Assembly: GCA_015063845.1 (NCBI GenBank)
Contig: SVTJ01000009.1
Coordinates: 16,193-80,192, forward strand
Length of the DNA stretch: 64,000 nucleotides
DNA from: Oscillospiraceae bacterium
GTDB lineage: Bacteria > Bacillota > Clostridia > Oscillospirales > CAG-272
Reading direction: 5' to 3'
How positions within the stretch are numbered: position 1 is the stretch's first letter; each line of letters opens with the position of its first letter. The notes beneath the pieces are model-generated. The model made no database searches. It saw only the letters and a list, made by a program, of their open reading frames with translations, and had not been told where the DNA came from. Shown here one piece after another: positions 19,512 to 64,000 of this stretch. Made by a program: the position numbers and the translations under genes.

Positions 19512-19582
19512 AAATTAGGACACGTCATCCGTCGTCTGCGAAGCAGATGACGGATGACGTATCTCACCGATAAAGCCTACGT
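19512..19582. repeat. Mini copy of the AAATTAGGATTTATCGG inverted-repeat element (copy 0)
   Basis: Left end AAATTAGGA at 19512 and right end CACCGATAAAGCCTACGTT, ending at 19582, match the ends of the larger elements with a few changes. Between them is a near-perfect hairpin, ACGTCATCCGTC with GACGGATGACGT, and an inner TCTGC/GCAGA pair. About 71 bp. Confidence 0.6.
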
Positions 19583-19623
19583 TACCACAAAGGCAAGAGA
19601 GATAACAAAGCAAAAATAAAAGC

Positions 19624-19656
19624 AGCTGCTTCGATCTGATCGAAGCAGCTTTTTTT
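19624..19656. terminator. Bidirectional terminator between the S1 gene and pcrA
   Basis: AGCTGCTTCG and CGAAGCAGCT form a perfect 10-bp stem with a 7-nt loop and are followed by six T. It touches the pcrA stop codon. Confidence 0.9.
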
Positions 19657-22111
19657 ATATCTTTCTCAGCTTTGCGAAGCTTCCCATAAGCTTCTTTGTG
19701 CCTGCATTATCAAACACGACCTCATAGAGCACGTCCGCTCCCATAGGCTTTACGGAGTATATCTCTCCCTCTCCAAATACTCGGTGGCTCACTCTGTCGC
19801 CAACCTTAAGCACCGCTTGCGGAGTGGGTTGTGGCTTGGGTGTTGGGCGGGACACCTCTCTTTGAGTAGGCTGACTGTCCTCTATCTTATATACCTTAGG
19901 TCTTGTTGGCCTCGGCATATACGCATACGGATCGTAATCGGCAGTGTCCTCAAGCAAGAGCTCGTCGGGTATCTCGCGAACAAACTTTGAAAGCGGATTG
20001 TAGGAAGTCTGGTTATACAGCATTCTGTTGCGAGCGTGAGAAATATATATCATATCCTTTGCTCTGGTTATCGCAACGTATGCAAGTCTCCTCTCCTCCT
20101 CCATATCCTCGGGGTCGATGGAGTTTATGTTCTGCATTCCGGGGAATATACCGTCCTCCATAGCGGGCAGAAATACTATCGGGAATTCAAGACCCTTTGC
20201 GGAGTGTACCGTCATCAGCACAACGGCATCCGCGTCCTCATCGTATCTGTCTACGTCCGCAACGAGCGAGCATCTTTCAAGAAACGCGTTAAGCACTCCG
20301 AGCGCGGTCGTATCGGTAGGCACTGTGGCAAAGCCGTCGTGCGTTTGGTCGATATAGATATTCGACGCTCCTCTGTACTCGTCCTCAAAGTCTATTACGT
20401 TCGATATAAGCTCGTCAAGGTTATCAACTCTTTCCTTTTCCTCGACACCCGCATCTATGAGCGACTGCTTGTATCCCGAAAGAGTGAGCGTTTGTCTGAC
20501 TACGTTTTCAAGACTTGTGTCGGTGCTCAAAAGCGCATAGAGCGTATCTATCATTTTTGCGAAATCGCGAAGCTTATCAGCCGAGCGAGAAAGTGCGGTA
20601 TACTTATTCGCAGTACGCATTATCTCTATGGGGTGAGCACCCTGCTCCGTAGCTATCGCAAAAAGTCCCTCTATTGTCTTAGCGCCTATACCTCTGCGAG
20701 GTACGTTGATTATTCTCTTAAGTCTCTCTCTGTCAGCAGGGTTCACGAGCACGTAAAGATACGCAAGTGCGTCCTTTATCTCCATTCGCTCGTAAAAGCT
20801 CTGTCCCGAGAGGGTCAGGTGAGGTATTCCGCTTGCGGAGAGCGTGGTCTCTATCGAGCTCGAAACGGCATTTACACGGTAAAGCACCGCCATATCGCGA
20901 TATTTATACTTGCCGCTCATTACCAGCTCGTTTATTCTCTCGCTGATATACACCGCCTCGCTCTTTTGCGTTTCGGCGCGGTGCAGCACGATACGGCTGC
21001 CGTTTTGTCTGTCGGTATAAAGCTTTTTACCAAGACGCTTGGAGTTTTTGGCTATCACGGCGTTTGCCGCCTCAAGGATACAATCGGTGGAACGGTAATT
21101 TCTCTCAAGACGTATTATATTCGTTCCCTTTTCTCTGCCAAAGTCTATTATGTTCTGCACGACCGCTCCGCGGAATTTATATATACTCTGGTCGTCGTCT
21201 CCGACTACCATTATATTGCCCCATTCCGAGCCAAGAAGCTGTGTGAGCTTTAGCTGCGCTTCGTTAGTGTCCTGGAACTCGTCAACGCAAACGTATCTGA
21301 ACTTACCCGCGTAATACTTTCGCGCTTCCTCGTTTTTATCGAGTATATGCACGGCGTTCAAAATGATGTCGTCAAAATCGAGCGCGTTGCAGTCGCGAAG
21401 CCTTTGCTGATACTTCTCATATATGAGCGCGATCTTCTGCTTGCGATAGTCGGTCGCTATCTCGGCACGATATATCTCGGGCGTCATTAGCTTATTCTTT
21501 GCAAGACTTATCTCCGAGCGCACGCTCTTAAGCTGAAGCGATTTTTCATCGATATTCAGCTCCTTCATAACGTCCTTAAGGACTGACTTTGTGTTATCTG
21601 TATCGTATATCGAAAAGTCCGACTTATAGCCTATAAGATCGGCATACTTGCGGATTATCCTCACGCACACGGAGTGAAAAGTTCCCGCCCATATATCGTC
21701 GGCATTTATCCCCTCGCCGAGAGTTGCGGCAAGTCTTTGTCTTATCTCCTCTGCCGCTTTTTTTGTAAAGGTTATGGCAAGCATTCTCCACGGTGGACAC
21801 GGGCTCTGACAAAACTCCGTCAGCACCTCTCCGAGCTGCTCTCTCGGCAAAAGCTTTGCGCCCTCGAGCCTCATTATCTTACCCTCGTCAAGATTTGCGG
21901 GAATATACTCTCCGTGATATGCGTTTCCGTATTTTATTATGTATTCGACACGGTTTACAAGCACCGTCGTCTTTCCGCTTCCCGCACCCGCAAGCACCAA
22001 GAGATGTCCGTCTATACTGAACACCGCACGTCTTTGCTCCTCGTTAAGAAAGCTATAATATTTTTCAAACAGCTCTTTCTTTACCTTTATATATCGCTGT
22101 GCTAAGGTCAT
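19655..22111 (-). CDS. pcrA: ATP-dependent DNA helicase PcrA/UvrD
   Basis: Superfamily 1 3'-5' helicase of 818 residues, for repair and rolling-circle replication. Walker A is GAGSGKTT (42-49). ITFTKKAAEEIRQRL, VDEFQDTNEAQ, GDDDQSIYKFRGA, RLERNYRS and VHSAKGLEFPIVFLPAMEDG are motifs Ia to VI in order. A low-complexity Pro/Gln linker precedes a C-terminal PcrA-type Tudor-like domain (VGDRVSHRVFGEGEIYSV). It is the last gene of the deo operon and overlaps the previous gene by 4 nt (ATGA). Confidence 0.96.
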   Translation of the reverse strand: MTLAQRYIKVKKELFEKYYSFLNEEQRRAVFSIDGHLLVLAGAGSGKTTVLVNRVEYIIKYGNAYHGEYIPANLDEGKIMRLEGAKLLPREQLGEVLTEFCQSPCPPWRMLAITFTKKAAEEIRQRLAATLGEGINADDIWAGTFHSVCVRIIRKYADLIGYKSDFSIYDTDNTKSVLKDVMKELNIDEKSLQLKSVRSEISLAKNKLMTPEIYRAEIATDYRKQKIALIYEKYQQRLRDCNALDFDDIILNAVHILDKNEEARKYYAGKFRYVCVDEFQDTNEAQLKLTQLLGSEWGNIMVVGDDDQSIYKFRGAVVQNIIDFGREKGTNIIRLERNYRSTDCILEAANAVIAKNSKRLGKKLYTDRQNGSRIVLHRAETQKSEAVYISERINELVMSGKYKYRDMAVLYRVNAVSSSIETTLSASGIPHLTLSGQSFYERMEIKDALAYLYVLVNPADRERLKRIINVPRRGIGAKTIEGLFAIATEQGAHPIEIMRTANKYTALSRSADKLRDFAKMIDTLYALLSTDTSLENVVRQTLTLSGYKQSLIDAGVEEKERVDNLDELISNVIDFEDEYRGASNIYIDQTHDGFATVPTDTTALGVLNAFLERCSLVADVDRYDEDADAVVLMTVHSAKGLEFPIVFLPAMEDGIFPGMQNINSIDPEDMEEERRLAYVAITRAKDMIYISHARNRMLYNQTSYNPLSKFVREIPDELLLEDTADYDPYAYMPRPTRPKVYKIEDSQPTQREVSRPTPKPQPTPQAVLKVGDRVSHRVFGEGEIYSVKPMGADVLYEVVFDNAGTKKLMGSFAKLRKI

Positions 22112-22890
22112 TTATCTTCCTCGTCTTTGTTATCGTTATCGTCGGTTTTACTGAGCAGCCTGAGTATCCTCTCCGTCTGCTCCTCTCTTGCTCTTTTGTT
22201 CATCTTCTCGTATTCGTCGAGCTCCTCGTCGTCCTCTATGTTCTCTACCTCTTGCTCGGCGTCACTCATAGTCTTGAGAGGACGCGGCTTATAGAACACG
22301 TTCATCTCCTCTATAGTTTCGTACCTTGCGGTAAGCACGCTCACAGCCACCGTGAGAGCATATAGCACAAGCGCGACAAACATCATATCAAAGGGTGTGC
22401 ATACAAGCTGTACGGGTATGAGAAGCACTCCGTCGTATATAGGCGGCAAAAGCATGGGAAAGAAGAATATCGGCAAAAGCAGTGCCTGATATATACAAAG
22501 CATGACTCTGTTCGGCACAAGCGTTATAAATAGCGCTCTCGCGCGAGTTGTCTTGCTTCCGCCAAAATACGCAAACGCGCTTACGGCGGAATAAACGGAA
22601 GCCGCCACGCCTATCGCAAAAAGAGCTATAAAGCTCGGTATGAGCGCGAGCATATACTTTGCAAACTCCACTATCTGCTCCTGCTGCTGAGTATCCGCGC
22701 CGAAAAGACGTTCTCTCGCCATATCCCAAAAGTTGTTCATAAGCGTGCTGAGAGACACAGCCTTTGTCATACCGTCTACCGTCAAGAACTGATAGCAAGG
22801 TATGAACATAAGTATTATCATTATGATTATCGCTAAAAAGGGGAAAATATATCGGAAATATATAAGTCCCCGTCTGGTGCTTTTTTTCAT
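22108..22890 (-). CDS. Multi-pass membrane protein of unknown function
   Basis: A 260-residue protein. One transmembrane helix lies near residues 12-32, and three or four more lie between 85 and 205. The intervening loop (about 40-80) is probably outside. The C-terminal 55 residues are very acidic and lysine-rich (EVENIEDDEELDEYEKMNKR) and must be cytoplasmic. No enzyme motif was seen. Its stop overlaps the pcrA start by 4 nt and it follows cdd by 19 nt. No function is proposed. Confidence 0.8.
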   Translation of the reverse strand: MKKSTRRGLIYFRYIFPFLAIIIMIILMFIPCYQFLTVDGMTKAVSLSTLMNNFWDMARERLFGADTQQQEQIVEFAKYMLALIPSFIALFAIGVAASVYSAVSAFAYFGGSKTTRARALFITLVPNRVMLCIYQALLLPIFFFPMLLPPIYDGVLLIPVQLVCTPFDMMFVALVLYALTVAVSVLTARYETIEEMNVFYKPRPLKTMSDAEQEVENIEDDEELDEYEKMNKRAREEQTERILRLLSKTDDNDNKDEEDK

Positions 22891-22909
22891 TTTCTAAGTT
22901 TCCTCTTTT

Positions 22910-23299
22910 TCATTTAAGGTCAAACGCCCAAGGCAAAAGCTCGCCGAGCGTGGTCTCGCTGCCGTCGGCAAAATATATCTTCAAGGACGCATCCGCGTGC
23001 TCCGAGAGCACCTGACGGCAAACTCCGCAAGGATAACACGCGTCGGACGCGCTCTCCCCTGCCTTGCCACCCACAACGGCTAACGCACGAAAATCGGTAA
23101 CTCCCTCGCTGACAGCCTTGAATATCGCAACTCTTTCAGCGCAGCACGTAGGGGTAAACGATGCGTTTTCTATATTGCAGCCCGTAAAGACCTCTCCGCT
23201 CTCGGAGAGCAATGCCGCTCCGACAAGAAATCCCGAATATGGCGCGTACGCCTTCTCTCTTGCGCTTTTTGCAAGCTCTATAAGCTTTTCGCTCGTCAT
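22910..23299 (-). CDS. cdd: Cytidine deaminase
   Basis: Homotetrameric zinc enzyme that deaminates cytidine and deoxycytidine, 129 residues. The zinc and proton-shuttle motif is CAE (Cys53-Glu55) in TCCAERVAIF. The second motif is PCGVC (Cys91, Cys94). The substrate segment GCNIENASF (40-48) is intact. It follows deoB by 9 nt, consistent with pyrimidine nucleoside salvage feeding deoxyribose-phosphate metabolism. Confidence 0.95.
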   Translation of the reverse strand: MTSEKLIELAKSAREKAYAPYSGFLVGAALLSESGEVFTGCNIENASFTPTCCAERVAIFKAVSEGVTDFRALAVVGGKAGESASDACYPCGVCRQVLSEHADASLKIYFADGSETTLGELLPWAFDLK

Positions 23300-23308
23300 A
23301 ATTTCTCC

Positions 23309-24445
23309 TTAATCGATACCGAGTGTATTTGATATTATCTTCGCTATGCGGCAAAAGCCGTCAAGCGTGCCGAGATCCTCTGCCGCCTCTCCCTTTTGAT
23401 ACACGAGCAGAGGCGTGTACTCTCTGGTGTGGTCGGTGCTCTTTGAGAAGCCCGGGTCACAGCCGTGGTCGGCGGTTATTATGAGCATATCGTCCTCGCT
23501 GAGCTTTTCAACAAAAGCTCCAAGCCAAGTATCAAAGGCGTTCAGTCCGCTCGCGTATGCGTTTGCATCTCTGCGGTGTCCCCAAAGCATATCGAAATCG
23601 ACAAGATTTGCAAAGCAAAGTCCCGTGAAATCTATTTTGGAAAGCTCGTCAAGCACGCTCATACCCTCGTCGTTGGAATGGGTATAGTGCGCCTGTGTAA
23701 AGCTCTGACCTGCAAAAATGTCGTATATCTTTCCGACGGATATACAGTCAAGTCCGCTTTTAACCACGCGCTCGGGCAAAATATCTTTTGGGGGCTCTAG
23801 CGAGAAATCACGTCTGTTTGCGGTGCGTCGAAAGTCTCCCGCGCTTCCCTTGAAGGGACGGGCGATTATTCTGCCGACTCCGTATTTTTCTCCCCTCATT
23901 ATCTCTCTTGCCTTGCGGCAGTAGCCGTAAAGCTCGTCGAGACTTACAATATCCTCATGAGCCGCTATCTGGAGCACGCTGTCTGCAGAGGTATACACGA
24001 TAAGCTTTCCGCTTTCGAGATGCTCCGCTCCGAAATCGTTTATAACCGCCGTACCCGAATACGGCTTATTGCAGAGTATTCCCCTGCCAAAAGCGGCTTG
24101 CAGTCTATCGACTATCTCGTCGGGAAAACCGTTTGGGAACGTGGGCATCGGCTCTTTTGAAATATGACCCGCTATCTCCCAGTGCCCGATAGTGGTGTCC
24201 TTACCACCCGACAGCTCACGCAGACGCGCGTGTGTCGCCAACGGCGCATTTGTCTTGCCGAGAAACGACAGTCCGTCTATATTTCCAAGCCCCAACGCAC
24301 AAAGATTGGGGATATCAAGAATTCCCGTGTTATAAAGACTGCGAAGCGTATGCGCGCCGCTATCGCCAAAAATGCTCGCGTCGGGTGCTTCCCCCGCGCC
24401 AACGCTATCGAGAACTATCAAAAAAACTCTCTTTGAGTGCTTCAT
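23309..24445 (-). CDS. deoB: Phosphopentomutase
   Basis: Alkaline-phosphatase-superfamily enzyme that interconverts (deoxy)ribose-1- and -5-phosphate, 378 residues. The metal and phospho-Thr region is LDSVGAGEAPDASIFGDSGA, the cap contains GKDTTIGHWEIAG, and the C-terminal metal motif is ADHGCDPG followed by STDHTREYTPLL. The ATG at 24443-24445 follows GAGGAAAG; the region further upstream is the end of deoD. It sits with deoD and cdd in one salvage operon. deoC (aldolase) is not in the window. Confidence 0.95.
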   Translation of the reverse strand: MKHSKRVFLIVLDSVGAGEAPDASIFGDSGAHTLRSLYNTGILDIPNLCALGLGNIDGLSFLGKTNAPLATHARLRELSGGKDTTIGHWEIAGHISKEPMPTFPNGFPDEIVDRLQAAFGRGILCNKPYSGTAVINDFGAEHLESGKLIVYTSADSVLQIAAHEDIVSLDELYGYCRKAREIMRGEKYGVGRIIARPFKGSAGDFRRTANRRDFSLEPPKDILPERVVKSGLDCISVGKIYDIFAGQSFTQAHYTHSNDEGMSVLDELSKIDFTGLCFANLVDFDMLWGHRRDANAYASGLNAFDTWLGAFVEKLSEDDMLIITADHGCDPGFSKSTDHTREYTPLLVYQKGEAAEDLGTLDGFCRIAKIISNTLGID

Positions 24446-24452
24446 ACTTTCC

Positions 24453-25178
24453 TCATTCTTGTATTTTTGCGGCAACGTCAAGCGCGAGACGCATCATATC
24501 CGTAAAGCCGCTCATTCTCTCGTCGGACGTAGTCGACTCACCCGTGACCAGCGAATCCGAGACCGTGCATATCGCAAGCGCCTTCTTTCCGGCTCTCGCC
24601 GCATTCATATAAAGAGCCGCCGCTTCCATCTCAACGGCAAGCACTCCCATCTTCTTCCACTTAAGTCCACCGCCGTTCTCATCGTAAAACGTATCCGACG
24701 AGAACAGATTTCCAACGTGATATTCAAGTCCCTTTTGCTTTGCGAGCTCAACGGCGCACTCAAGCGTTTTATAGTCGCATATTGGCGCGTAATGACCGCC
24801 AAGAGCATACTGCTCGCTATACGCGGAATTTGTACAAGCTCCCATTCCGAAAACTATATCGCGAACCTTTACCTGCTCTTGCAAAGCTCCCGCAGAGCCT
24901 ATCCTTATGATACAGTCAACGTCAAAAAAGTTGTATAGCTCATAGCTGTAAATACCTATCGACGGCATTCCCATACCGCTTGCCATTACCGACACGCGCT
25001 TTCCGTTCCACTCTCCCGTATAGCCCTGTACCCCTCTTACGTTATTGAAAAGCACGGGGTTTTCAAGAAAATTCTTGGCAACGTACTCCGAACGCAAAGG
25101 GTCGCCCGGCATAAGCACGACCTTGGCAATATCCGACGGGGACGCCTTGATATGAGGTGTTGGTGTTTTTTCCGACAT
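24453..25178 (-). CDS. deoD: Purine-nucleoside phosphorylase, DeoD type
   Basis: Hexameric bacterial PNP that releases ribose-1-phosphate from purine nucleosides, 241 residues. Characteristic segments are VLMPGDPLRSEYVAKNFLE, the phosphate site IRIGSAGALQ, and GVLAVEMEAAALY with the substrate glutamates, followed by CTVSDSL. The ATG at 25176-25178 follows AAAGGAG at 11 nt; a GTG 12 nt upstream overlaps the RBS. Its product is the substrate of DeoB, encoded next. Confidence 0.95.
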   Translation of the reverse strand: MSEKTPTPHIKASPSDIAKVVLMPGDPLRSEYVAKNFLENPVLFNNVRGVQGYTGEWNGKRVSVMASGMGMPSIGIYSYELYNFFDVDCIIRIGSAGALQEQVKVRDIVFGMGACTNSAYSEQYALGGHYAPICDYKTLECAVELAKQKGLEYHVGNLFSSDTFYDENGGGLKWKKMGVLAVEMEAAALYMNAARAGKKALAICTVSDSLVTGESTTSDERMSGFTDMMRLALDVAAKIQE

Positions 25179-25198
25179 TTTTACGTACACTCCTTTTG

Positions 25199-25786
25199 TC
25201 AGTTTTTAAGCGGAGTTCCCTCCATATAGTACGACGCTTCCATATCCGCCACGCAAAGCGCAAAGGCAAGCGGAAACATCTCAAGTGCCCTGCCTATCTG
25301 ATTTGCGTCCTCGGGACCCGAGAAGCCCATATGGTATCTTATCGCGAACGCCTCGTCACGCGTGAGCTTGATAAATCCCGAGATTATGTAAACGGATTTT
25401 TCGCCGTGACCGTATGGCAGATTGTCCTCTATGGTATAATAAGGGACACTCTCCCACACTCCGTTCTTCTTTACGTTTCGCATCTCGGTCTTGTAAAAAT
25501 TAGTCTTACAAAGGTCGTGAAGCAATGCCGCGATGGCAAGCGACTCCTCTGAGAAGGTAAAGCCGTATTTCTCCTTAAAGCGCGGACGATTCACAAAATC
25601 GCAAAGACATTCGTAGACGTTGAGGCTGTGCTCAAGCAAGCCTCCCTCATACGCGCCGTGAAATCTCGTTGACGCAGGTGCTGTAAAGAAATCCGTCTTG
25701 CACTCAATGTATTCCAGCAGCTTATCCGCGCCCTCTCTCTTTACACACGATTTGTAAATATCAATAAATTTTTCTCTGTTAGTCAT
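25199..25786 (-). CDS. HD-domain phosphohydrolase-like protein
   Basis: A 195-residue protein with the HD metal-binding pattern: H in GGLLEHSLNVYE (His53), HD in ALLHDLCKTNFY (His90-Asp91), further histidines in LPYGHGEK and IRYHMG, and D in ADMEASY. It is most like the small hydrolases of the COG3481 type. The substrate is not known; its place at the head of a nucleoside-salvage operon suggests a nucleotide, which is inference. Confidence 0.8.
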   Translation of the reverse strand: MTNREKFIDIYKSCVKREGADKLLEYIECKTDFFTAPASTRFHGAYEGGLLEHSLNVYECLCDFVNRPRFKEKYGFTFSEESLAIAALLHDLCKTNFYKTEMRNVKKNGVWESVPYYTIEDNLPYGHGEKSVYIISGFIKLTRDEAFAIRYHMGFSGPEDANQIGRALEMFPLAFALCVADMEASYYMEGTPLKN

Positions 25787-25815
25787 ATTATTTCTCCATA
25801 AATATAGTTATATTT

Positions 25816-25844
25816 ATTGTATCACATTTCCCGCCATAAATCAA
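25816..25844 (-). promoter_or_regulatory. Sigma-A promoter of the HD-deoD-deoB-cdd-pcrA operon
   Basis: Minus strand TTGATT (25839-25844), 17-bp spacer, TACAAT (25816-25821), about 25 nt before the first start codon. Confidence 0.68.
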
Positions 25845-25883
25845 CGGTGATATTATAAATTTATAATATTTTTAAATATAAGA

Positions 25884-25918
25884 TCCGCATTGGAAATGAA
25901 ATTCATCTCCAATGCGGA
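25884..25918. terminator. Hairpin downstream of the 577-residue protein gene
   Basis: TCCGCATTGG...CCAATGCGGA forms a stem of about 17 bp with one mismatch. The T tract that follows on the minus strand is broken (CTTATATTT), so its strength as a terminator is uncertain. Confidence 0.6.
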
Positions 25919-25935
25919 AATAATGCTATCAATGC

Positions 25936-27669: not shown

Positions 27670-27721
27670 ACTCGACCTCCGTATTAAAAAGCCAAAAAAG
27701 CCTTAATAAATGTCAATAAAA

Positions 27722-27750: not shown

Positions 27751-27866
27751 CAAGTTACCATATTTTCTCACTAATAATAAAAAAACATCTGTCAACAATA
27801 ATAGCAGAGCAGCGGAAAAGCGGCGACAGGGGCAAAGGATTTTGCTCGGTATGCCGCAAAGGAAAG

Positions 27867-45434: not shown

Positions 45435-45880
45435 AAATTAGGATTTATCGGTGTGTTCGCACAGCACCCATTATTGAAAGTTTTGATAAAACTTTTTCAA
45501 AAGTTTTCGCGCTCAAGCCGCGTAGGCTTGTCGCTCGTCGCAACGAGCGAAACACCCTCACGGTCACGGTGGGTCTATGGTTGAGCAAGCTCAACCGTAA
45601 GGTTTCGCAAAGCGAAACGTTTAGGGACCTCCCAGCCGCTCTCCGCAGAGAGCGGAACACCCCTTATTAACACAAAGTTACTTTATGCTACAATAGGGGA
45701 TTTCGCTGCCTGCGGGCAGCGCTCGGGGGTTCCCCCCGAACTCCCTTCTCAGCGTAAGGAGTTCCGCTCTCTGCGGAGAGCGGCAATGGGCGCCGCCCCT
45801 TGACCCCGCAAGTTTTTGAAAAAACTTGACTAAAACTTTTAAGAGGGGTGCTGTGCGAACACACCGATAAATCCTAATTT
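45435..45880. mobile_element. Inverted-repeat element, copy 1 (446 bp)
   Basis: Both ends are identical for 35 bp, starting AAATTAGGATTTATCGGTGT and continuing through GTTCGCACAGCACCC. The inverted similarity then continues to about 75 bp (AAAGTTTT...TTTTTCAAAA). The interior holds further hairpins: CGCTCTCCGCAGAGAGCG, GCTGCCTGCGGGCAGC, and GGTTGAGCAAGCTCAACC. It has no credible gene and no transposase. No target-site duplication could be seen. It lies between the convergent folD and surface-protein terminators and accounts for nearly all of the 45408-45967 gap. Confidence 0.78.
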
Positions 45881-48685: not shown

Positions 48686-49007
48686 AAATTAGGATTTATC
48701 GGGGACGCGTTTTTTGAGGGAAATTTTTTGAGGGAAACTTCTTGAAAGAAGTTTCCCTCAAACTCCCTTCAAGAACTTTAAAACAAAATAGTATTGTTAC
48801 AGCCATAGGAAATATATAACTTTATTGTTTTTCTCTGAGGTAAAAACTCGTCGGACCCTACGTACCGACGAGTTTTATGGGTATTTGAAAGTTTTGCACT
48901 GCAAAGAGTTTTTCAGCCCAATTAAAAAAATAATAATTTCTTTGTGTTAAAGTTCTTAGAGGGGGACACTCGCAAGCCTGTGCGAACACATCGATAAATC
49001 CTAATTT
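48686..49007. mobile_element. Inverted-repeat element, copy 2 (322 bp)
   Basis: Left end AAATTAGGATTTATCGG; right end is its complement, reading TGTGCGAACACATCGATAAA and ending CCTAATTT. The right arm matches copy 1 for about 28 bp. Inside are two near-copies of TTTTTTGAGGGAAA, the hairpin GGGAAACTTC/GAAGTTTCCC, and a hairpin AACTCGTCGG/CCGACGAGTT at 48847-48876. No gene. It lies between the divergent surface-protein promoter and gapA; 49008-49262 beyond it is AT-rich leader. Confidence 0.72.
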
Positions 49008-51911: not shown

Positions 51912-52135
51912 AAATTAGGATTTGTCGGTGAATTGTTTGTGTTGTAAAATGGGTCGTCGGGGACGTCGACCCCTACAAGCTCCCAATATAAATTGCCATA
52001 AAAGTTATTTGTGGTATCCCTTAAATCTTTATTAAATAACATATAATACGAATATGTTCACTTACCCATTGTAGGGGTCGACGTCCCCGTCGACCCGTTC
52101 GGTACACATATCTAACTATTCGACAAATCCTAATT
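51912..52135. mobile_element. Inverted-repeat element, copy 3 (224 bp)
   Basis: Left end AAATTAGGATTTGTCGGTG at 51912; the right end is its complement (CGACAAATCCTAATT, ending 52135). Inside each end lies an inverted copy of a second palindrome, GGGACGTCGACCCCTACA. The core is AT-rich and contains ACGAATATGTTCACTTACCC. Its interior is the same as that of copy 5 at 63820. No gene. It fills most of the 51838-52140 gap between gdhA and the GH2 gene. Confidence 0.78.
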
Positions 52136-52140
52136 CAATC

Positions 52141-55805: not shown

Positions 55806-55849
55806 TTTCTATTTCCGTCCTTTCACGAAATATTTTATAGACTATATTT

Positions 55850-55878
55850 ATTTTACCATACATTATAGGTCACTTCAA
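55850..55878 (-). promoter_or_regulatory. Sigma-A promoter of eda
   Basis: Minus strand TTGAAG (55873-55878), 17-bp spacer, TAAAAT (55850-55855). Confidence 0.72.
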
Positions 55879-55909
55879 TCCAAAAACAAATCACTTTTTA
55901 AGCAAAAAA

Positions 55910-57064: not shown

Positions 57065-57110
57065 ATTTTTCTCCGTTTCTTCGATACGGTCTTGCGTATC
57101 CACTCTTTTA

Positions 57111-57139
57111 ATTATACAATGGCAGCACAAAAAAGTCAA
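57111..57139 (-). promoter_or_regulatory. Sigma-A promoter of the RNA methyltransferase gene
   Basis: Minus strand TTGACT (57134-57139), 17-bp spacer, TATAAT (57111-57116). Confidence 0.83.
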
Positions 57140-57148
57140 GAGTGCTTC

Positions 57149-57459
57149 AAATTAGGATTTATAGGTGAGTTTGTGATTGGTTTAGAGGAGATCCTTCGGC
57201 GACGCTCGCAGAGCGAGCTGCTCAGGATGACGCATAGAAGGAGTGCGTCGAGAACAATACCTGATATTGCCAAAACTCATTTTACAAATCATCCTGAGCG
57301 AAGCGTAAGCGTAGCCGAAGGATCCCCTTATTTTTTGCATCACACGGGTCGTAGGGGCGATTCACGAATCGCCCGTTTATAGCATTATGTTCTCGTGGCG
57401 GGCGATTCATGAATCGCCCCTACGGAATTGTAATTCAACACACCGACAAATCCTAATCT
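57149..57459. mobile_element. Inverted-repeat element, copy 4 (311 bp), carrying two nested palindromes
   Basis: Left end AAATTAGGATTTATAGGTGA at 57149; right end CACACCGACAAATCCTAATC, ending 57459. Inside are two more inverted repeats. One is GATCCTTCGGC...GCTCAGGATGA with TCATCCTGAGC...GCCGAAGGATC (57190-57324). The other is CGTAGGGGCGATTC...GAATCGCCCCTACG (57350-57424). No gene. Confidence 0.75.
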
Positions 57460-57667
57460 GAAAGTGCACAAATGGCATCGCATTGCAACAAAGGCTCCCT
57501 GCGGAGGGAGCTGTCGAGCGAATGCGAGACTGAGGGAGAGCGCGTGTACAATAGCGTTATATCTTACCTCCGCATGCACGCCGGCTCCTTCCACCACTTC
57601 GTGGTCCCCCTCCCTCTCGGAGGGAGGCTTATGGGCGCTGTGCGAACACATCGACAAATCCTAATTT
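57460..57667. repeat. Adjacent half-element with one matching end
   Basis: This unit ends at 57667 with TGCGAACACATCGACAAATC and CTAATTT, the same end as copies 1 and 2, but has no left end of its own. The interior contains GGCTCCCTGCGGAGGGAGC and GGCTCCTTCC...GGAGGGAGG hairpins. Together with copy 4 it forms a 519-bp composite. Small open frames in it are not credible genes. Confidence 0.65.
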
Positions 57668-57683
57668 GTCACCATCAAAAAGA

Positions 57684-57715
57684 CAAGAACGCACCCATTT
57701 AAGGGTGCGTTCTTG
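57684..57715 (-). terminator. Terminator of the small broken gene at 57738
   Basis: CAAGAACGCACCC and GGGTGCGTTCTTG pair around ATTTAA; on the minus strand TCTTTTTG follows. It shows that the region upstream (57738-57917) was once, or still is, transcribed. Confidence 0.82.
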
Positions 57716-57737
57716 CTAAATCATAAATATATTACTA

Positions 57738-57917
57738 TTACCACTCAAACTCAAACATTTCCTTAACGTCTTCGGGAATGTCCTTTTTCGATATAAACGA
57801 GCTTATATTGCACTTCATAGCTTTCGTAATCACCATTGTCTTCCATGGAGATAACTTTGATCAAATTTCCGTTTGCATCGTAGGTATGATCGTTACCAAT
57901 AAAAATGTCTTTTTCAT
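57738..57917 (-). pseudogene. Small gene with two compensating frameshifts
   Basis: An ATG at 57915-57917 has AAGGGAG upstream. Its frame stops early, but the next frame reads IFIGNDHTYDANGNLIKV, then ISMEDNGDYESYEVQYKLVYIEK. A second shift at the A-run opposite 57784-57788 continues KDIPEDVKEMFEFEW, then TAA. Removing one A-run deletion near the start and one A insertion gives a single protein of about 59 residues. The YDANGNL motif resembles RHS/YD repeats. It is either a decayed gene or two homopolymer sequencing errors. Confidence 0.5.
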
Positions 57918-58012
57918 TTTTATCGCTCCCTTTCTCGATCTTTTATGACATTAGTATATCATAAAGACTTTTTGTGTCAAGAAAAAATCGAGCTATCGGG
58001 AGCAAAATGTTC

Positions 58013-58453
58013 TTAGAAATTCACACATTTCCTGACTGCGCCTATCGCCACTTGCTTGTCGTTTTTCGCGTCCATCTCACGCATTATGAGTGTCTTATCC
58101 TGTATCTCGCTTGGCGCAAGCTTGCCCGTAAGCGCGGAGCACCACGCATAACCGCCGCGCGAGTACAGCGGCGGTATCGCGCACCGTGTTTGTACCTCTT
58201 TTGAGCCATCGTTTGAGGCAAGAGAGAGCGTATACACGCCTTTATCACTCAGACCTTTGACCGTCACGCATACGAGCATACCAAGGGGCGTATAATAAAA
58301 GCTTGCCGTACCACTCATATGCGCCTCTCCCTTTAGCTGCGCCTTCGCAAAAGGTCGCCTTCCCCGTCCAAGCGTGCCAACTCCGTGCAATATGCACTCT
58401 CTTGCAAGATCGTTCTCAACAACTGCCGTTTCTCCAAAATCCACTGTGTTCAC
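58013..58453 (-). CDS. Superoxide-dismutase-fold protein without metal ligands
   Basis: A 146-residue protein with a GTG start, 6 nt after AAGGAAGG. The C-terminal 100 residues resemble the short Cu/Zn-SOD-like proteins of Clostridia: LKGEAHMSGTASFYYTPLG, then IPPLYSRGGYAWCSALTGKL and PSEIQDKTLIMREM, where homologues read PPLxxxxGxAxxxxxTxxFxxxEIxGRTVIIH. The histidines that bind copper and zinc are absent, and the glycine-rich ion-channel loop is shortened. It is therefore probably a non-enzymatic relative. The identification rests on pattern similarity only. Confidence 0.55.
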   Translation of the reverse strand: MNTVDFGETAVVENDLARECILHGVGTLGRGRRPFAKAQLKGEAHMSGTASFYYTPLGMLVCVTVKGLSDKGVYTLSLASNDGSKEVQTRCAIPPLYSRGGYAWCSALTGKLAPSEIQDKTLIMREMDAKNDKQVAIGAVRKCVNF

Positions 58454-58535
58454 TTCATACCTTCCTTTTTCGTTTTTTATTGCATAAGCATTACAAGTAT
58501 ATTCGCAAAAGCCCCCGAGGTTTACTCATTTTTAC

Positions 58536-58564
58536 TTGACATTGAATAAAAAATTTGATATAAT
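58536..58564 (+). promoter_or_regulatory. Sigma-A promoter of holB-ricT
   Basis: TTGACA (58536-58541), 17-bp spacer, TATAAT (58559-58564). Confidence 0.9.
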
Positions 58565-58611
58565 TATTTTATGTATATATTTTTACGGTTTGCGGGATTG
58601 GAGATGATGGC

Positions 58612-59643
58612 GTGAGAGAATATATGACGGGCGTCGTGGGCAACAAAAAGCTTTGCGAAAAGCTGTGTCTTGACGTTCTTATGGATAAGCTTTCACATGC
58701 CTGCATCATCGAGGGACCTGCGGGCACGGGCAAGCACACGATAGCAAAAAACGCTGCCGCCGCGCTCGCGTGTCAAGAAAAAGCAAACTCCTCTCTCCCC
58801 TTTCCTTGCGGCAAATGCATCGGCTGCAGAAAGGTATTCGAGGGAAAATCTCCCGACGTTATCACAGTGCGCCGTGCGCCCGACAAGGCAACGCTTGGCG
58901 TTGATATCGTCAGAGATCTCAAAAAGGACGTTTTTACCGTTCCCAACGACCTTGACTTCAAAATATACATCATTGAGGAAGCCGACAAAATGACAGAAGA
59001 AGCGCAGAACGCATTTCTTCTTACGCTTGAAGAGCCTCCGTCGTTCGTTCGATTTTTCTTGCTTTGCGAGCACTCCGAGCTGTTGCTTGAAACCATAAGA
59101 AGCCGCGCTCCCGTGCTTCGTACAGAGCCCATCGCAAACAGCGATATAGACGCTTATCTTCAAAGGACCGACCGTCGCGCTCAACAACTCAAGCTTTCGT
59201 CTCCGTCGGAATACGCCGAGCTTATAGTGTCAGCTAAGAACGGTATAGGAAGCGCGCTTGAATATCTCGATCCGTCAAGCTTTGCGCCCGTGATGCAGAC
59301 CAGAACGCTCGTAAAGGAGTTTATCGGCGCCGCTATTGGGCACAACACGGGAGAATTGCTTGTGATGCTGCCAAGATTTTCAAGCAAGCGTGACACGCTC
59401 ACCGAGCAGCTCTCTTCGCTGTCGGAGGCAATGAACGACCTCATGCTCATCAAAAAGAGCGACAATGCTCCTCTTAGCTTTTTTGAGAACAGAGCAGTCG
59501 CTATGGAGCTTAGTGACCGAAGCTCACTGAGCTTTCTCTACACAATGTCCTGCGCCGTGCTCACGGCTCTGGACAGCACGTCAAAAAACGCAAACGTCCG
59601 TCTCACACTTGTAAAGCTTTTGTGTGATGCGGAGCTCATATAG
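58612..59643 (+). CDS. holB: DNA polymerase III delta-prime subunit
   Basis: AAA+ clamp-loader subunit of 343 residues. P-loop GPAGTGKHT (35-43). The zinc-module cysteines are in ALACQEK and PFPCGKCIGC. Walker B-like EEADKMTEEAQNAFLLTLEEPP and the sensor region LLLETIRSRAPVLR follow, as in HolB/DnaX relatives. The GTG start is 8 nt after GGAG. It is followed by a ricT gene, the usual holB-yaaT order of Firmicutes. Confidence 0.93.
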   Translation: MREYMTGVVGNKKLCEKLCLDVLMDKLSHACIIEGPAGTGKHTIAKNAAAALACQEKANSSLPFPCGKCIGCRKVFEGKSPDVITVRRAPDKATLGVDIVRDLKKDVFTVPNDLDFKIYIIEEADKMTEEAQNAFLLTLEEPPSFVRFFLLCEHSELLLETIRSRAPVLRTEPIANSDIDAYLQRTDRRAQQLKLSSPSEYAELIVSAKNGIGSALEYLDPSSFAPVMQTRTLVKEFIGAAIGHNTGELLVMLPRFSSKRDTLTEQLSSLSEAMNDLMLIKKSDNAPLSFFENRAVAMELSDRSSLSFLYTMSCAVLTALDSTSKNANVRLTLVKLLCDAELI

Positions 59644-59655
59644 AAAGGAAACGTT

Positions 59656-60993
59656 ATGGAAGAACAAAAGAAACCCGATGGCAACGCAAGCGGTAACGCA
59701 GGTGGCAAGCATCACGGACGCAAGCATCACCGCCGTCACGGATATTTTATAGAACCGCCAAAGGACAATGCCGCCGATACAGCTACGGTCGCGCAACCTA
59801 AGGCAGCAGAGACCGCGAAGCCCGCTGAGCAGTCCGCCGCGCAAAAGCCCGAGGGCAATGCGAACCCTTCAAACCACAAGCACAAGAGAAACAGACATCA
59901 TAACAAAAACAAGAAAGGACCAAAGCCCGCCGAACAGAATCCTCAGGCGCAAGCACCCGAGAAGTCCGAGGCTGAACGTCCTCAAAAGAATCAAAACCAA
60001 CAAAACAAAAAAAAGCAAAACGACAAGCCAAAGAGTGTTCCTTTTAATCCCCCCACTCAGTCAAAGCCCGCGCCCACACACGCAAGTGACGAATACGAGG
60101 AGTACAAGCTTTTCGTGGACGATCCCGCTGAAAGCACGGACACTGAGCATACCGAAGAGACAGTTGACAGGACTGAGGTAATAGGAATAAGGTTCAAGAG
60201 CACGGGAAAGATCTACTACTTCGATCCCGACGGCAAGAAGTATCAGAAAGGTAGCAAAGCTATCGTTGATACTGCAAGAGGTCAGGAATTCGGAGAGGTC
60301 GCTTCCTCGAACAGCTTTGTAAGAAGCTCGGATATCGTTCCACCTTTGCGCAAGGTCATAAGAAGTGCCACCGATGAGGATATCGAGCACCACAAGGCAA
60401 ACAAGCAAAAAGAAGAGGATGCATTCAAAATATGCAACGAAAAGATAGCCGCTCACGGACTTGATATGAAGCTGATAGAGGCGCAATACACCTTTGACAA
60501 CACAAAGCTTTTATTCTACTTCACCTCGTCTGACCGAGTTGACTTTAGAAATCTCGTCAAGGATCTCGCGTCTGTTTTCCGTACCCGTATAGAGCTTCGC
60601 CAGATAGGTATAAGAGACGAGGCAAAGCTTATGGGCGGACTTGGAATGTGTGGCAGACCTCTTTGCTGTACGCTCTTCCTTTCCGATTTCGACCAGGTGT
60701 CGATAAAGATGGCAAAGGAGCAAAATCTCTCGCTCAACTCGGCAAAGATATCGGGTATATGCGGCAGACTTATGTGCTGCTTGCGTTATGAGCACGAGGC
60801 ATATGAATACGAGATCAAGCGCACGCCTCCCGTCGGCTCACTTGTACGCACGGAGAACGGCGACGGACACGTTACCGAGATAAATCCGCTCAGAAGAACG
60901 GTAAAGGTCAGCCTTATCGCCTCCCCCGAAGTACCTCCCAAGGTCTATAACCGCGACGAGGTCACGATGCTCAGAAAGAAGAAACAAGATTAA
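59656..60993 (+). CDS. ricT: PSP1-domain regulator RicT (YaaT)
   Basis: A 445-residue protein. The C-terminal PSP1 domain (about 175-440) is strongly conserved: GLDMKLIEAQYTFDNTKLLF, RIELRQIGIRDEAKLMGGLG, then MCGRPLCC and GICGRLMCCLRYE, whose cysteines bind an Fe-S cluster in the Ric complex. The Ric proteins (RicA, RicF, RicT) support mRNA maturation with RNase Y and sporulation initiation in Bacillus. The first 140 residues are a low-complexity Lys/Asn/Gln/Pro-rich extension. 12 nt after holB. Confidence 0.92.
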   Translation: MEEQKKPDGNASGNAGGKHHGRKHHRRHGYFIEPPKDNAADTATVAQPKAAETAKPAEQSAAQKPEGNANPSNHKHKRNRHHNKNKKGPKPAEQNPQAQAPEKSEAERPQKNQNQQNKKKQNDKPKSVPFNPPTQSKPAPTHASDEYEEYKLFVDDPAESTDTEHTEETVDRTEVIGIRFKSTGKIYYFDPDGKKYQKGSKAIVDTARGQEFGEVASSNSFVRSSDIVPPLRKVIRSATDEDIEHHKANKQKEEDAFKICNEKIAAHGLDMKLIEAQYTFDNTKLLFYFTSSDRVDFRNLVKDLASVFRTRIELRQIGIRDEAKLMGGLGMCGRPLCCTLFLSDFDQVSIKMAKEQNLSLNSAKISGICGRLMCCLRYEHEAYEYEIKRTPPVGSLVRTENGDGHVTEINPLRRTVKVSLIASPEVPPKVYNRDEVTMLRKKKQD

Positions 60994-61000
60994 GAAAAAC

Positions 61001-61030
61001 AAAAGAGCTTTCCGCTTGGAAAGCTCTTTT
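61001..61030. terminator. Bidirectional terminator between ricT and pgsA
   Basis: AAAAGAGCTTTCC and GGAAAGCTCTTTT pair around GCTT; A and T runs lie on both sides. Confidence 0.9.
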
Positions 61031-61042
61031 GCTTTGTGTTTT

Positions 61043-61678
61043 TTATTTTTCGGGATCGAGATATTTCCAATAGGACTTAAGGTAATTCACACCCGACCAA
61101 ATTGTCATAAAGAGCGAGAATATCATAGTTATCCATGTAAGCGGAACTACGTTCGTAGGCCACGAAACGCTAACTCCCTTGCAAGCCTCTACGATGAACT
61201 CGGCAATAAGCTGAACGACAGGCTCAAGGAATACTGTGGATATAGCTACCACCTGAGATACCGTCTTTATCTTGCCAAGGCTGTTTGCCGCAACTACTAT
61301 TCCCTCTCCCGTTGATACCACAAGTCTCATCGACGTTACAGCGAGCTCGCGGAATACAACTATAATGAGTGTGAATATCATAAGAAGTCGGAGATTTTCA
61401 AACTTGTAAAGTATAACAAAGAGTGTACCGATGACCATAAACTTGTCAGCAACGGGGTCAAGGAACTTTCCAAAATCGGTAATGAGATTATCACGTCTTG
61501 CTATCTTGCCGTCAAGCATATCGGTGACGGACGTGCCTATAAAGAGAACAGCGCACAGCACGCAGGAAACGTAAAACGGAATTACCGTTTCGGGAAGCAT
61601 TCCCACAATGAGTATCACGGGAACGAGACAAAGCCTGAGCACTGTCAGCTTGTTGGGTAAATTCATTTTCATATTCAT
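61043..61678 (-). CDS. pgsA: CDP-diacylglycerol-glycerol-3-phosphate 3-phosphatidyltransferase
   Basis: Membrane enzyme of phosphatidylglycerol synthesis, 211 residues. The CDP-alcohol phosphotransferase signature DGx2ARx8Gx3Dx3D reads DGKIARRDNLITDFGKFLDP. Five or six transmembrane helices fit the family. Two further ATGs 6 and 12 nt downstream could also start it; GGAG suits the first or second. It is the last gene of the gph-rimO-pgsA operon, 10 nt after rimO. Confidence 0.95.
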   Translation of the reverse strand: MNMKMNLPNKLTVLRLCLVPVILIVGMLPETVIPFYVSCVLCAVLFIGTSVTDMLDGKIARRDNLITDFGKFLDPVADKFMVIGTLFVILYKFENLRLLMIFTLIIVVFRELAVTSMRLVVSTGEGIVVAANSLGKIKTVSQVVAISTVFLEPVVQLIAEFIVEACKGVSVSWPTNVVPLTWITMIFSLFMTIWSGVNYLKSYWKYLDPEK

Positions 61679-61688
61679 CTATCTCCAA

Positions 61689-63038
61689 TCACTTATTTTG
61701 GTCGATAAGCGCTCTGCCCAACAGGTCGTAGTCGAGCACCTCTCTTATTCTTACCTTAACGAACGAGCCGGGCGCGATCCTCTTGTCGGAACGGAAATAA
61801 ACCTTTCCGTCTATCTCGGGAGCATCGGCATAGCTTCTTCCAAAATGCACCTCACTTACGGGATCGTAGTCCTCACAGATGACCGTGACTATCTTGTCTA
61901 TCATCTTCTGATTGTTCGCCTCGTTTATCTCAAGTTGCTCACGCATAACAAGGTCCATTCTGTCAAGCTTTACTTGCTCGTCTATCTGGTCGGGCATATC
62001 GTATGCCACCGTATCCTCCTCGCGAGAATAGGTAAACACCCCTGCTCTGTCGAACTTCGTCTCCTTTACAAACTCGCAAAGCTCGCAGAAGTCCTCCTCG
62101 GTCTCTCCGGGGAAGCCTACGATAAACGTCGTTCTTATTATCATACCGTCAATACTGCGAAGCTTTCTTATAACGTCCTTTATCATTGCCGCATCGCCGT
62201 GTCTGTTCATAGCTTTGAGCATATGGTCGCTTATGTGCTGTATGGGCAGGTCGATATACTTAAGTATTCTATCATTATTACGTATTGTCTCGATAAGCTC
62301 ATCGGTGACCTTATCGGGATAGCAATAAAGAAGTCTTATCCACGGAATATTCGTCTCGGCAATTATCCTTTGGAGAAGCTCCGAGAGCTTATATTCTCCA
62401 TATAGGTCAAGGCCGTATCTCGTTGTGTCCTGAGCGACAACGCAAAGCTCCTTGACACCAAGTGCCTCGAGCTGCTTTGCCTCAGCAACAAGGTCCTCCA
62501 TAGGTCTGCTCCTGAACTTTCCTCTTATGAGCGGAATAGCGCAGTAAGCACAACGGTTATCACAGCCCTCAGCTATCTTGAGATATGCCATATGGTCGGG
62601 CGTTGTGAGTATTCTGTCACCGCCAAGGCGCACACTTTCCTTGTCCTCAAAGGACGTATACTTGCGCTTCGAGCCTTTTTTCTTTTTTACCGTTACAGCT
62701 TCTATTGCCTCAACTATGTTATGTATGCTTCCCACGCCAAGCACGGCATCTATCTCGGGAAATTCGTCGAGCAGCTGCTCGCGGTATCTCTCAGCAAGAC
62801 AGCCCGTGACAACTATCGCCTTAAGCCCTCTGTTCTTTTTGAGCCAAGCTACATCAAGTATATTCTCAATAGCTTCCTGCTTTGCGCTCTCTATAAATCC
62901 GCAGGTGTTTATTATAACAACGTCTGCCTCGGTCTCCTCGGGAGTTATCTCATACCCCGCAGAAGCGACCTCGTGAAGCATTACCTCGGTATCCAGCTGA
63001 TTCTTAGGACAACCGAGAGAAACAAATCCAACCTTCAT
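61689..63038 (-). CDS. rimO: Ribosomal protein S12 methylthiotransferase
   Basis: Radical-SAM enzyme that methylthiolates Asp of ribosomal protein S12, 449 residues. The N-terminal MTTase domain (VSLGCPKNQLDTEVM) holds three cluster cysteines. The radical SAM motif is CDNRCAYC near residue 155. The C-terminus is a TRAM domain. SLGCPKN and the S12-type domain layout distinguish it from MiaB. It follows gph by 33 nt. Confidence 0.95.
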   Translation of the reverse strand: MKVGFVSLGCPKNQLDTEVMLHEVASAGYEITPEETEADVVIINTCGFIESAKQEAIENILDVAWLKKNRGLKAIVVTGCLAERYREQLLDEFPEIDAVLGVGSIHNIVEAIEAVTVKKKKGSKRKYTSFEDKESVRLGGDRILTTPDHMAYLKIAEGCDNRCAYCAIPLIRGKFRSRPMEDLVAEAKQLEALGVKELCVVAQDTTRYGLDLYGEYKLSELLQRIIAETNIPWIRLLYCYPDKVTDELIETIRNNDRILKYIDLPIQHISDHMLKAMNRHGDAAMIKDVIRKLRSIDGMIIRTTFIVGFPGETEEDFCELCEFVKETKFDRAGVFTYSREEDTVAYDMPDQIDEQVKLDRMDLVMREQLEINEANNQKMIDKIVTVICEDYDPVSEVHFGRSYADAPEIDGKVYFRSDKRIAPGSFVKVRIREVLDYDLLGRALIDQNK

Positions 63039-63071
63039 TATTTACTTCCTTTGTCTATATATATGTTTCTA

Positions 63072-63719
63072 TTATTCAAATATTTCGGTAAGACACGCGG
63101 GAGAGTCGATAATAACGTCCGCGTCCTCAAGCATATCTCGAGAGCGATATCCCCACGTGCAGGCAACTGCCGTCATTCCCGCATTTTTTCCCGTTTTGAC
63201 GTCCACCTCGCTATCGCCGATAAAAGCGCACTCAGCGGGAGCCACCTTGAACATTTCCGCTATCATTTTCGGTACGGTGGGGTCCGGCTTTGCGGGGAGT
63301 GCAGTCTGCCCCGACACAAATTCAATAATTCCATCGGGAAACAAGAGACCAATTATCTTTTTGGTATATGCGTCTTGCTTGTTTGAAAGCACACAGAGCT
63401 TATAGCCACGCGCGTGAAGCGTATGCATAGCCTCGCTCATTCCCTCATAGCAGCCGTCCACGTTTGCGTAAGTCTTTTCATAGAACTTGTCGTAATCTTC
63501 AAAAACGCGGGCGCAAAAGGCCTCGTCGTCCTGAAGCTCTACGGGAATACTCCTTTTTATGAGCAATCTCGCACCGTTTCCGATAGCCGCTCTTATATCC
63601 TCGTATGACCTATGCGGCAGACCGTACTTATCCATAGCGAGATTTACTCCGTCACGAATGGAATATATAGTATCCGCGATAGTGCCGTCAAGGTCAAATA
63701 TCAACAGTTTCTTTTTCAT
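63072..63719 (-). CDS. gph: HAD-family hydrolase, probable phosphoglycolate phosphatase
   Basis: A 215-residue haloacid-dehalogenase-like phosphatase. Motif I is IFDLDGTIADT (nucleophile Asp near residue 8), motif II is VLSNKQD, motif III is KPDPTVPKM, and motif IV is IGDSEVDVKTGKNAG. The cap lies between motifs I and II. The ATG at 63717-63719 follows AAGGATAGG; two upstream in-frame ATGs lack a suitable RBS. Substrate by family likeness only; pyrophosphatase PpaX is a possible alternative. Confidence 0.85.
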   Translation of the reverse strand: MKKKLLIFDLDGTIADTIYSIRDGVNLAMDKYGLPHRSYEDIRAAIGNGARLLIKRSIPVELQDDEAFCARVFEDYDKFYEKTYANVDGCYEGMSEAMHTLHARGYKLCVLSNKQDAYTKKIIGLLFPDGIIEFVSGQTALPAKPDPTVPKMIAEMFKVAPAECAFIGDSEVDVKTGKNAGMTAVACTWGYRSRDMLEDADVIIDSPACLTEIFE

Positions 63720-63754
63720 TTTCCTATCCTTGGACATAAAAACATTCTTATACA

Positions 63755-63783
63755 ATTATAACACAACACAAACGTTATGTCAA
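63755..63783 (-). promoter_or_regulatory. Sigma-A promoter of gph-rimO-pgsA
   Basis: Minus strand TTGACA (63778-63783), 17-bp spacer, TATAAT (63755-63760). Confidence 0.88.
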
Positions 63784-63819
63784 TGACCGCTCTGCAATTT
63801 TTAGAAGACGCAGTTTTGT

Positions 63820-64000
63820 AAATTATGATTTGTCAGTGTGTTATAGTATGCCAACGAACGGGTCGTCGAGGACGTCGACCCCTACACGCTCCTAATACAA
63901 TTCACCATAAAATATAAACATATTTCCCATCAAATTACATCAAACAACATCTGATGCGAATATGTTTGCTCTATCCATTGTAGGGGTCGACGTCCTCGAC
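63820..64000. mobile_element. Inverted-repeat element, copy 5 (cut by the window end)
   Basis: Left end AAATTATGATTTGTCAGTGT, then GGACGTCGACCCCTACA, an AT-rich core with GCGAATATGTTTGCTCTATC, and the inverted GTAGGGGTCGACGTCC at the window edge. Order and interior match copy 3. The right end should lie within about 60 bp past the window. Confidence 0.72.

Follow-up and report, generated by a model that had tools for sequence, protein, structure and literature searches.

What are the intergenic elements that share one inverted end sequence and enclose different interiors in the genome of an Oscillospiraceae bacterium? We addressed this question for a stretch of 64,000 nt (the window) of contig SVTJ01000009.1 (assembly GCA_015063845.1). 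The window is the final 64 kb of this contig, here named C16, and ends where the contig ends; the source genome, G000, comprises 1,877,229 bp in 21 contigs and is 96.7% complete. The end sequence, which we call END, is 19 bp long, reads AAATTNNNATTTRTCGG and does not contain GTAG. We consider the END elements to be, with a probability of about 0.6, non-autonomous, hairpin-forming intergenic mobile cassettes with an inverted end of 16–19 bp, moved in trans by a recombinase that acts at the END border. A preliminary description of the window had already spoken of non-autonomous mobile elements whose ends stay constant while the cargo changes, and this view gained support from near-identical copies at unrelated places, from the inward pairing of the ENDs, from the richness in ENDs of 6 of 30 genomes of the genus and their rarity in the others, and from two relatives in which the orthologous genes have no element between them.

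END-bounded elements in the window and in the genome

We observed 10 END matches with at most three mismatches in the window and none in 100 shuffled sequences. When two mismatches were allowed, 91 END copies were found in the whole genome while the reversed pattern, used as a control, gave none, which bears out the shared inverted ends claimed earlier. For the analysis of pairing in G000 we relaxed the pattern to the core AAATTAGGATTTRTCG and allowed for as many as three mismatches. This core yielded 120 ENDs, which form 62 groups (20 with one END, 27 with two, 14 with three and 1 with four), and no match for the mirror control. Neighbouring ENDs at most 700 bp apart faced inward in 39 cases and outward in none; a further 13 pairs were oriented ++ and 6 −−, where weak ENDs underlie one case of each kind (C13:31284, C14:79172). 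The elements of G000 range from 73 to 517 bp. Those in the window are listed here, with the interior types A to G as described in the next section; elements without a sign were not assigned to a strand.

45435–45880: END-bounded element, interior type D (many small palindromes), both ends without mismatch, interior folding z −11.8
45435–45453, plus strand: left END of the type D element, 0 mismatches
45862–45880, minus strand: right END of the type D element, outward flank GAC
48686–49007: END-bounded element, interior type A (~310 bp class) with terminator-like AAAACTCGTCGG..CCGACGAGTTTT, one mismatch at each end
51912–52136: END-bounded element, interior type B, TCGAAT-variant right end, left end with one mismatch
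51951–51976, minus strand: GTAG plus palindrome, similar to a repetitive extragenic palindrome (REP), first of an inverted pair in 51912–52136 (= C16:68104–68328)
52071–52096, plus strand: GTAG plus palindrome (REP-like), second of the inverted pair in 51912–52136
57149–57459: END-bounded element, interior type F plus type C REP pair, ends with one and two mismatches
57351–57375, plus strand: GTAG plus palindrome (REP-like) in the type C cargo
57400–57423, minus strand: GTAG plus palindrome (REP-like), inverted partner in the type C cargo
57460–57667, minus strand: unit E, 208 bp between two direct END copies, which makes the composite 57149–57667
57649–57667, minus strand: END, outer end of unit E, two mismatches
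63820–64000, plus strand: END-bounded element, type B, truncated where the contig ends, left end with three mismatches
19512–19583: weak member, a 72-bp palindrome with one recognisable END, right end with three mismatches, left end not detected

Three of these elements (45435–45880, 48686–49007 and 57149–57459) are as previously described, and the second of them is 93% identical to the type A reference copy at C4:33387. Others had to be revised in part. The element given as 51912–52135 has the expected left end, whereas its right end, at 52118–52136, is a variant that reads TCGAAT after the core and differs from the 19-mer at five positions and from the 16-base core at one. The element starting at 63820 does have its left end, though with three mismatches; the contig stops before its right end is reached. 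For 19512–19582 only the right one of the two claimed ends was detected, and this may be a decayed or a chance member. Three right ends had been said to share TGTGCGAACACA: those at 45862 and 48989 are indeed right ends of elements, while the third belongs to the END at 57649–57667, which had been missed and which turns 57149–57667 into a composite. A search of the window against Rfam gave no matches at the gathering score.

Interior families, folding and cargo

Sorted by eye, the segments between ENDs in G000 fall into about seven recurrent types, A to G (A about 310–330 bp, B about 226–260 bp, C 146 bp, D about 300–450 bp, E 208 bp and G about 115 bp), of which type A holds a terminator-like hairpin and type D many small palindromes. 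The interiors had been called mostly unrelated, which is correct within the window but not genome-wide, where they form these recurrent families. Compared with one reference copy of the respective type, 10 copies of A were 92–97% identical, 5 of C 95–97%, 13 of unit E 96–99%, 9 of B 71–94% and 4 other copies of D 56–84%. The flanks of the elements are unrelated, save for adjacent repeats. Since the compared copies of A, C and E, at unrelated places, are 92–99% identical to their reference, ENDs and cargo have spread together, and at least these three types were amplified along with the ENDs. One could suppose instead that END is only one palindromic repeat among many, that others have inserted in its centre and that nothing recognises END now. 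Minimal END palindromes of 48 bp are indeed present (L124, L122), and cargo cores stand alone in congeners. However, the A, C and E copies keep their high identity over the whole length, including the linkers between END and core, and all cargo matches in the window lie inside END elements, except for one piece of 31 bp at 16470. Such a nesting of repeats is therefore very improbable as the whole explanation.

Among the 66 testable interiors (38 from G000 and 28 from relatives; four others were too short to include), 63 fold at z < −3 compared to shuffles, with a median of −8.2. The alternative of a structured unit kept for its ends, also raised in the preliminary description, is thus in part true too, with regard to the strong folding. 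A related possibility is that of regulatory units under selection at gene ends, either bidirectional terminators or stability hairpins, that were spread by ordinary recombination. The strong folding and the terminator-like hairpin of type A would agree with this, as would the observation that none of the 39 complete elements of G000 lies inside an open reading frame (ORF) of at least 140 codons. These 39 elements are nevertheless found in mixed gene contexts (14 convergent, 17 tandem and 8 divergent), 23 of the 30 genomes of the genus have 0–5 ENDs, and the END border is constant beside unrelated flanks, so that we regard regulatory units as improbable.

An inverted pair of GTAG-plus-palindrome sequences was observed in 17 of 58 segments in G000 and in 7 of 31 in relatives (about a quarter), compared to 2 of 890 mononucleotide shuffles. 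Such a pair is the REP-doublet signature of GTAG REPs and of REPINs, the hairpin-forming REP doublets (PMC3733652, PMC3116915).

Junctions, target duplication and polarity

Read outward, the base just outside END is a purine at 97 of 101 outer ends, and the site can therefore be written as Y|END...END|R. In full, the junction takes the form pyrimidine|AAATT...AATTT|purine, where no more than one side is flanked by TTC: in G000 this triplet flanks exactly one side of 21 of the 39 elements, neither side of 18 and both sides of none. At the loci L108–L206 we found TTC at 26 of 34 ends of the TTTG/TTGG type versus 4 of 118 ends of the TGGG type (p = 3e-18). The one-sided TTC thus suggests that a left side and a right side can be told apart in the elements. 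No target duplication of 2–9 bp was detected in the 39 elements of G000 and 26 elements of relatives with boundaries shifted by up to 8 bases; the best z in G000 was 3.05 among about two thousand settings.

Classical miniature inverted-repeat transposable elements (MITEs) of DDE insertion sequences have terminal inverted repeats, are small, carry no genes and occur in bursts. END elements resemble them in their terminal inverted repeats, their length of 73–517 bp, the lack of evident coding capacity and their bursts of copy number, and might be miniature derivatives of a DDE insertion sequence whose terminal inverted repeats are END. But the 65 elements have no detectable target duplication of 2–9 bp although several families are young, the TTC polarity is one-sided, and neither a parent insertion sequence nor the END-bounded transposase gene that had been proposed as a check was seen in the stretches read around ENDs, outside of which most of each genome lies. 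Neighbouring inward END pairs at least 600 bp apart, which could enclose such a gene, numbered ten, all in loci of other genomes and none in the stretches of G000; each has at least one mismatched end, and by eye none contains a transposase-like ORF. We therefore judge a MITE origin to be unlikely.

Two minor observations concern the border itself. In the genome G294 (L341, L343 and L347) the ends are seemingly extended outward by ~15 bp (ATGAAAATAATTGAC or its complement), and the END border may differ between families. At L135 and L156, two elements of the Clostridia genome RGIG8650 lie exactly 21 bp apart, END− to END+, with a similar sequence in this spacer; the spacing in two loci is too little to use.

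Composites and probable exchange at the END border

Unit E carries a single END and adjoins, in the same direction, a second END that belongs to its neighbour. This holds for each of the 15 full copies in G000, which were found only in junction with other elements and with the join at the same END border; in one of them, at C1:13927, the abutted END carries a 1-base deletion. A 16th copy is truncated at a contig end, and no END was detected next to two longer, diverged relatives of E in G000 (73–79% identical). The partners of E, assigned by eye, are B in seven cases and C in three (each in both orientations), A in three, F-C in one and D in one. Another arrangement, C19:14577–15027, is an F-G-C array. 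Repeat H (L058–L066, e.g. C8:29107–29306) is A-like, ~200 bp long and ends in GCGTCC-like tandem units. In 7 of its 9 best copies it abuts END at one fixed base with different interiors beyond, and in one of the remaining two (C4:17353) a B-type core is found at that base in place of END. Such precise joins with changing partners, in unit E as well as in repeat H, point to exchange at the END border.

The left flank at C1:2582 is 87% similar over 185 bp to the window from 45881 onward, and related large genes adjoin. At the two sites the elements occupy the same spot with different interiors (B+E versus D).

Distribution in related genomes

We surveyed 30 genomes of the genus, G000 included, with AAATTNNNATTTRTCGGKG at one mismatch. 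Six genomes are rich in ENDs (G000 88, G008 173, G009 166, G016 219, G019 51 and G026 63), while G018 has 8, the 23 others 0–5 and the controls 0–1. The choice of pattern matters here, as a narrower one gives 3 matches in G008 versus 173 with AAATTNNNATTTRTCGGKG; the core triplet of END varies by species and by end, e.g. AGG in G000, and GGG and TTG in G016. In its END positions the congener G016 agrees with contigs of RGIG8650, a named Clostridia metagenome-assembled genome. Order-wide, an exact END match was found in 26 of 394 sampled genomes, again with G000 included. Among the matches listed, the named genomes are in many cases ruminant-gut Clostridia and Oscillospiraceae metagenome-assembled genomes; single matches in unrelated bacteria, likewise among those listed, look like chance.

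We next compared orthologous sites. At the locus of 57149–57667, the methyltransferase and polymerase-subunit genes are adjacent in G007 and G017 with no element between them, and the window has an extra ORF compared to both. G007 contains one unpaired END match with two mismatches at the gene start, and in G008 an end TTC|AAATTTTG is located upstream of the same gene. The comparison of flanks suggested earlier thus gave an element that is absent between the genes in two relatives, and no target duplication, but no exact empty site; at the gap gene, the relatives that were inspected have another order of genes upstream.

Within G000 the groups of END elements are unevenly distributed. When the contigs C1, C4, C13, C16 and C21 were compared with C3, C10 and C12, we observed 9–17 groups per 100 kb on the former five and only 0.3 on the 353-kb contig C3. 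Seven ENDs of G000 are no more than about 270 bases away from the end of a contig, and END elements may account for assembly breaks in such genomes.

Search for a mobilising enzyme

A recombinase encoded elsewhere, as the preliminary description put it, would have to move the elements. The closest precedent is that of REPINs, and the END elements could be hairpin doublets of this type, moved by a standalone RAYT (Y1) that is absent from the assembly, e.g. because it lies on an unbinned contig. Their architecture matches that of REPINs (PMC3116915), with short conserved inverted ends, a hairpin, intergenic position, high copy number, tandem clusters and a presumed mobilisation in trans. Furthermore, GTAG-tagged REP pairs occur as cargo, and a precedent exists in A. 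variabilis, where GTAG REP dimers are found within a longer, conserved outer palindrome (PMC3733652). In contrast to REPINs, END elements have no GTAG at their ends, vary in content and in length (48–517 bp) and contain REP pairs only as cargo; unlike in A. variabilis, the same outer ENDs surround several kinds of interior that are not REPs and, as direct repeats, make up composites as well. Searches with Y1_Tnp (PF01797, RAYT/IS200) gave no match in G000, nor in the likewise END-rich G008, G009, G019 and G026; in G016, also END-rich, a match stayed below the threshold. All further matches came from END-poor genomes, among them a strong one in G018 (8 ENDs), and 5 of 14 control genomes were positive. 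G000 is 96.7% complete, and we consider REPINs with a RAYT missing from the assembly to be unlikely.

For a derivative of IS200/IS605 the lack of target duplication would fit, but the Y1 gene was not found in G000. IS110 (PF01548, DEDD transposase) had no match in G000 and was above cut-off in 3 of 19 genomes, which likewise separates the END elements from IS110/IS1111 derivatives; IS91 (PF04986, Y2) was found in none of 19 genomes, a result that is uninformative because the control genomes were silent too. We also clustered 546 END-adjacent ORFs by similarity and, judging by sequence without annotation, recognised no evident transposase in the largest 25 clusters. A tyrosine recombinase near END, the intact integrase at L335:1097–2068, was considered as mover and rejected: its proximity to END is weak evidence because this integrase is of an ordinary kind; 6130 relatives were found at E ≤ 0.001, none of them confirmed on viral contigs. 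We did not file the END elements under REPIN, MITE, IS200/IS605, IS110 or integron because for each of these classes we looked for a defining feature and did not find it. They would seem to work most like REPINs with an unexpected mover. The best-ranked titles and abstract openings of one literature library, searched for the END sequences as text and for the topics, described no such elements in Clostridia; the END sequences led to a single paper, on an unrelated subject.

Weighing the proposed mobile cassettes

Several results weigh against cassettes that are mobilised in trans. To begin with the enzyme, the Y1_Tnp and IS110 searches gave no match in G000, and no mover was found in this genome at all, with no search aimed at tyrosine or serine recombinases or at reverse transcriptases. 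Exact empty sites were not alignable, as the orthologous intergenic regions are too diverged or rearranged. In 20 of the 62 END groups only one END is detectable, some of these groups being at contig ends. Cargo can exist without ENDs, as interior cores in congeners also stand without them, and strong folding is not restricted to END elements, since 4 of 11 hand-picked control intergenic stretches fold at z < −3 as well. The relation of TTC to the orientation of type A is not significant (7 of 16 versus 1 of 12, p = 0.09). The highest z for a target duplication (about 4, in relatives) was obtained only at boundaries within ENDs, where it is uninformative on the flanks. Finally, the uneven spread of ENDs over the contigs is not accounted for by random insertion and is partly an assembly effect.

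For mobile cassettes, the following mechanism can be proposed. A recombinase would recognise paired ENDs, probably as a folded or synapsed pair, and join DNA at their outer border without target duplication. Recognition of the END pair would leave the interior free to vary, and palindromic repeats caught between two inward ENDs could travel as cargo. Composites, for instance E+X and the F-G-C array, might then arise by exchange at the END border. With less certainty, the same border may be used from the other side elsewhere in the order, where small genes would be placed between outward ENDs behind a promoter. If this is correct, the END elements would add a trans-mobilised hairpin family with other selfish repeats among its cargo. 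The junction rule (pyrimidine|END, no duplication) fits no enzyme family that could be tested, and the END-bounded gene cassettes elsewhere in the order predict a recombinase that would cut at AATTT|R.

Gene cassettes between outward-facing ENDs

An END version, AAATTCTTATTTATCGGTG (once with CGT for CTT), is found once or a few times per genome in several families, including the family and genus of G000. When the other strand is read, a TATAAT box immediately precedes it in 13 of the 14 loci. Where the gene is resolved, this END lies 14–38 nt upstream of the start codon of a small gene (148 nt in L328). In 7 of 8 complete cases a further END, AAATTNNNATTTRTCG with at most one change, follows 1–16 nt past the last stop codon; these seven cassettes (L328, the first of L330, L331, L333, L334, L338 and L348; the exception is L329) come from four families and one unassigned record. 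Their products are GNAT, VanZ, DUF3885, a chromate transporter, a methyltransferase and HTH (helix-turn-helix) proteins, and one without a Pfam match.

L331:370–1005 and L348:622–1098: example cassettes among L328–L340 and L348 (also L333, L334 and L338)

The ENDs of these cassettes face outward, with the border AATTT|R unchanged. L330 and L331, from one genome, have upstream DNA in common and diverge from the END border on, while L336 and L339, from two genomes, contain the same gene with different upstream DNA. These arrangements lend support to site-specific exchange at END, although they do not prove it; a binding site in common might also be all that links the cassettes to the hairpin elements.

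The core consensus of integron attC sites is RYYYAAC...GTTRRRY. END elements share with attC sites and cassettes the imperfect palindrome with conserved inverted ends and a variable folded centre, and elsewhere in the order compact genes stand at a conserved border behind a promoter. In contrast to integrons, the END sequences, by eye, have no RYYYAAC/GTTRRRY core, the elements of G000 are dispersed over the contigs rather than arrayed, the cassette genes sit between outward-facing ENDs, and no dedicated integrase was found, with no search aimed at IntI. A tentative extension, which we hold to be possible but doubtful, is that END is the half-site of an integron-like system in gut Clostridia and the order, in which one recombinase would act at the AAATT border, inward pairs would be hairpin cassettes and outward pairs would be gene slots behind a ready-made promoter. 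If true, gut Clostridia would possess a gene-capture system comparable to integrons.

We also looked for these sequences outside of chromosomes. On viral contigs, END variants were found in 10, 3 and 0 stretches, cassette ends in 0 and 0, and a facing END pair in 9, five of which were inspected; the inspected matches seem to be chance. In one viral-contig match, L209, the END at the contig end may be real. Plasmid matches to the promoter with END, in 24 enterobacterial records (88% over 33 nt in those listed), were taken as chance.

With regard to the surroundings of the cassettes, truncated C-termini of tyrosine recombinases, recognised by eye, adjoin the cassette END in L328 and L338, and the intact integrase of L335 does so in a third locus. 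tRNA genes are located near five cassette loci, upstream in L332, L336, L338 and L340 and downstream in L334, and the cassettes may sit in genomic islands. L348 (MT836745.1), which is filed as 'Bacteriophage sp.', reads as a fragment of a Clostridia chromosome, with RecA-, CinA- and RimO-like ORFs recognised by eye.

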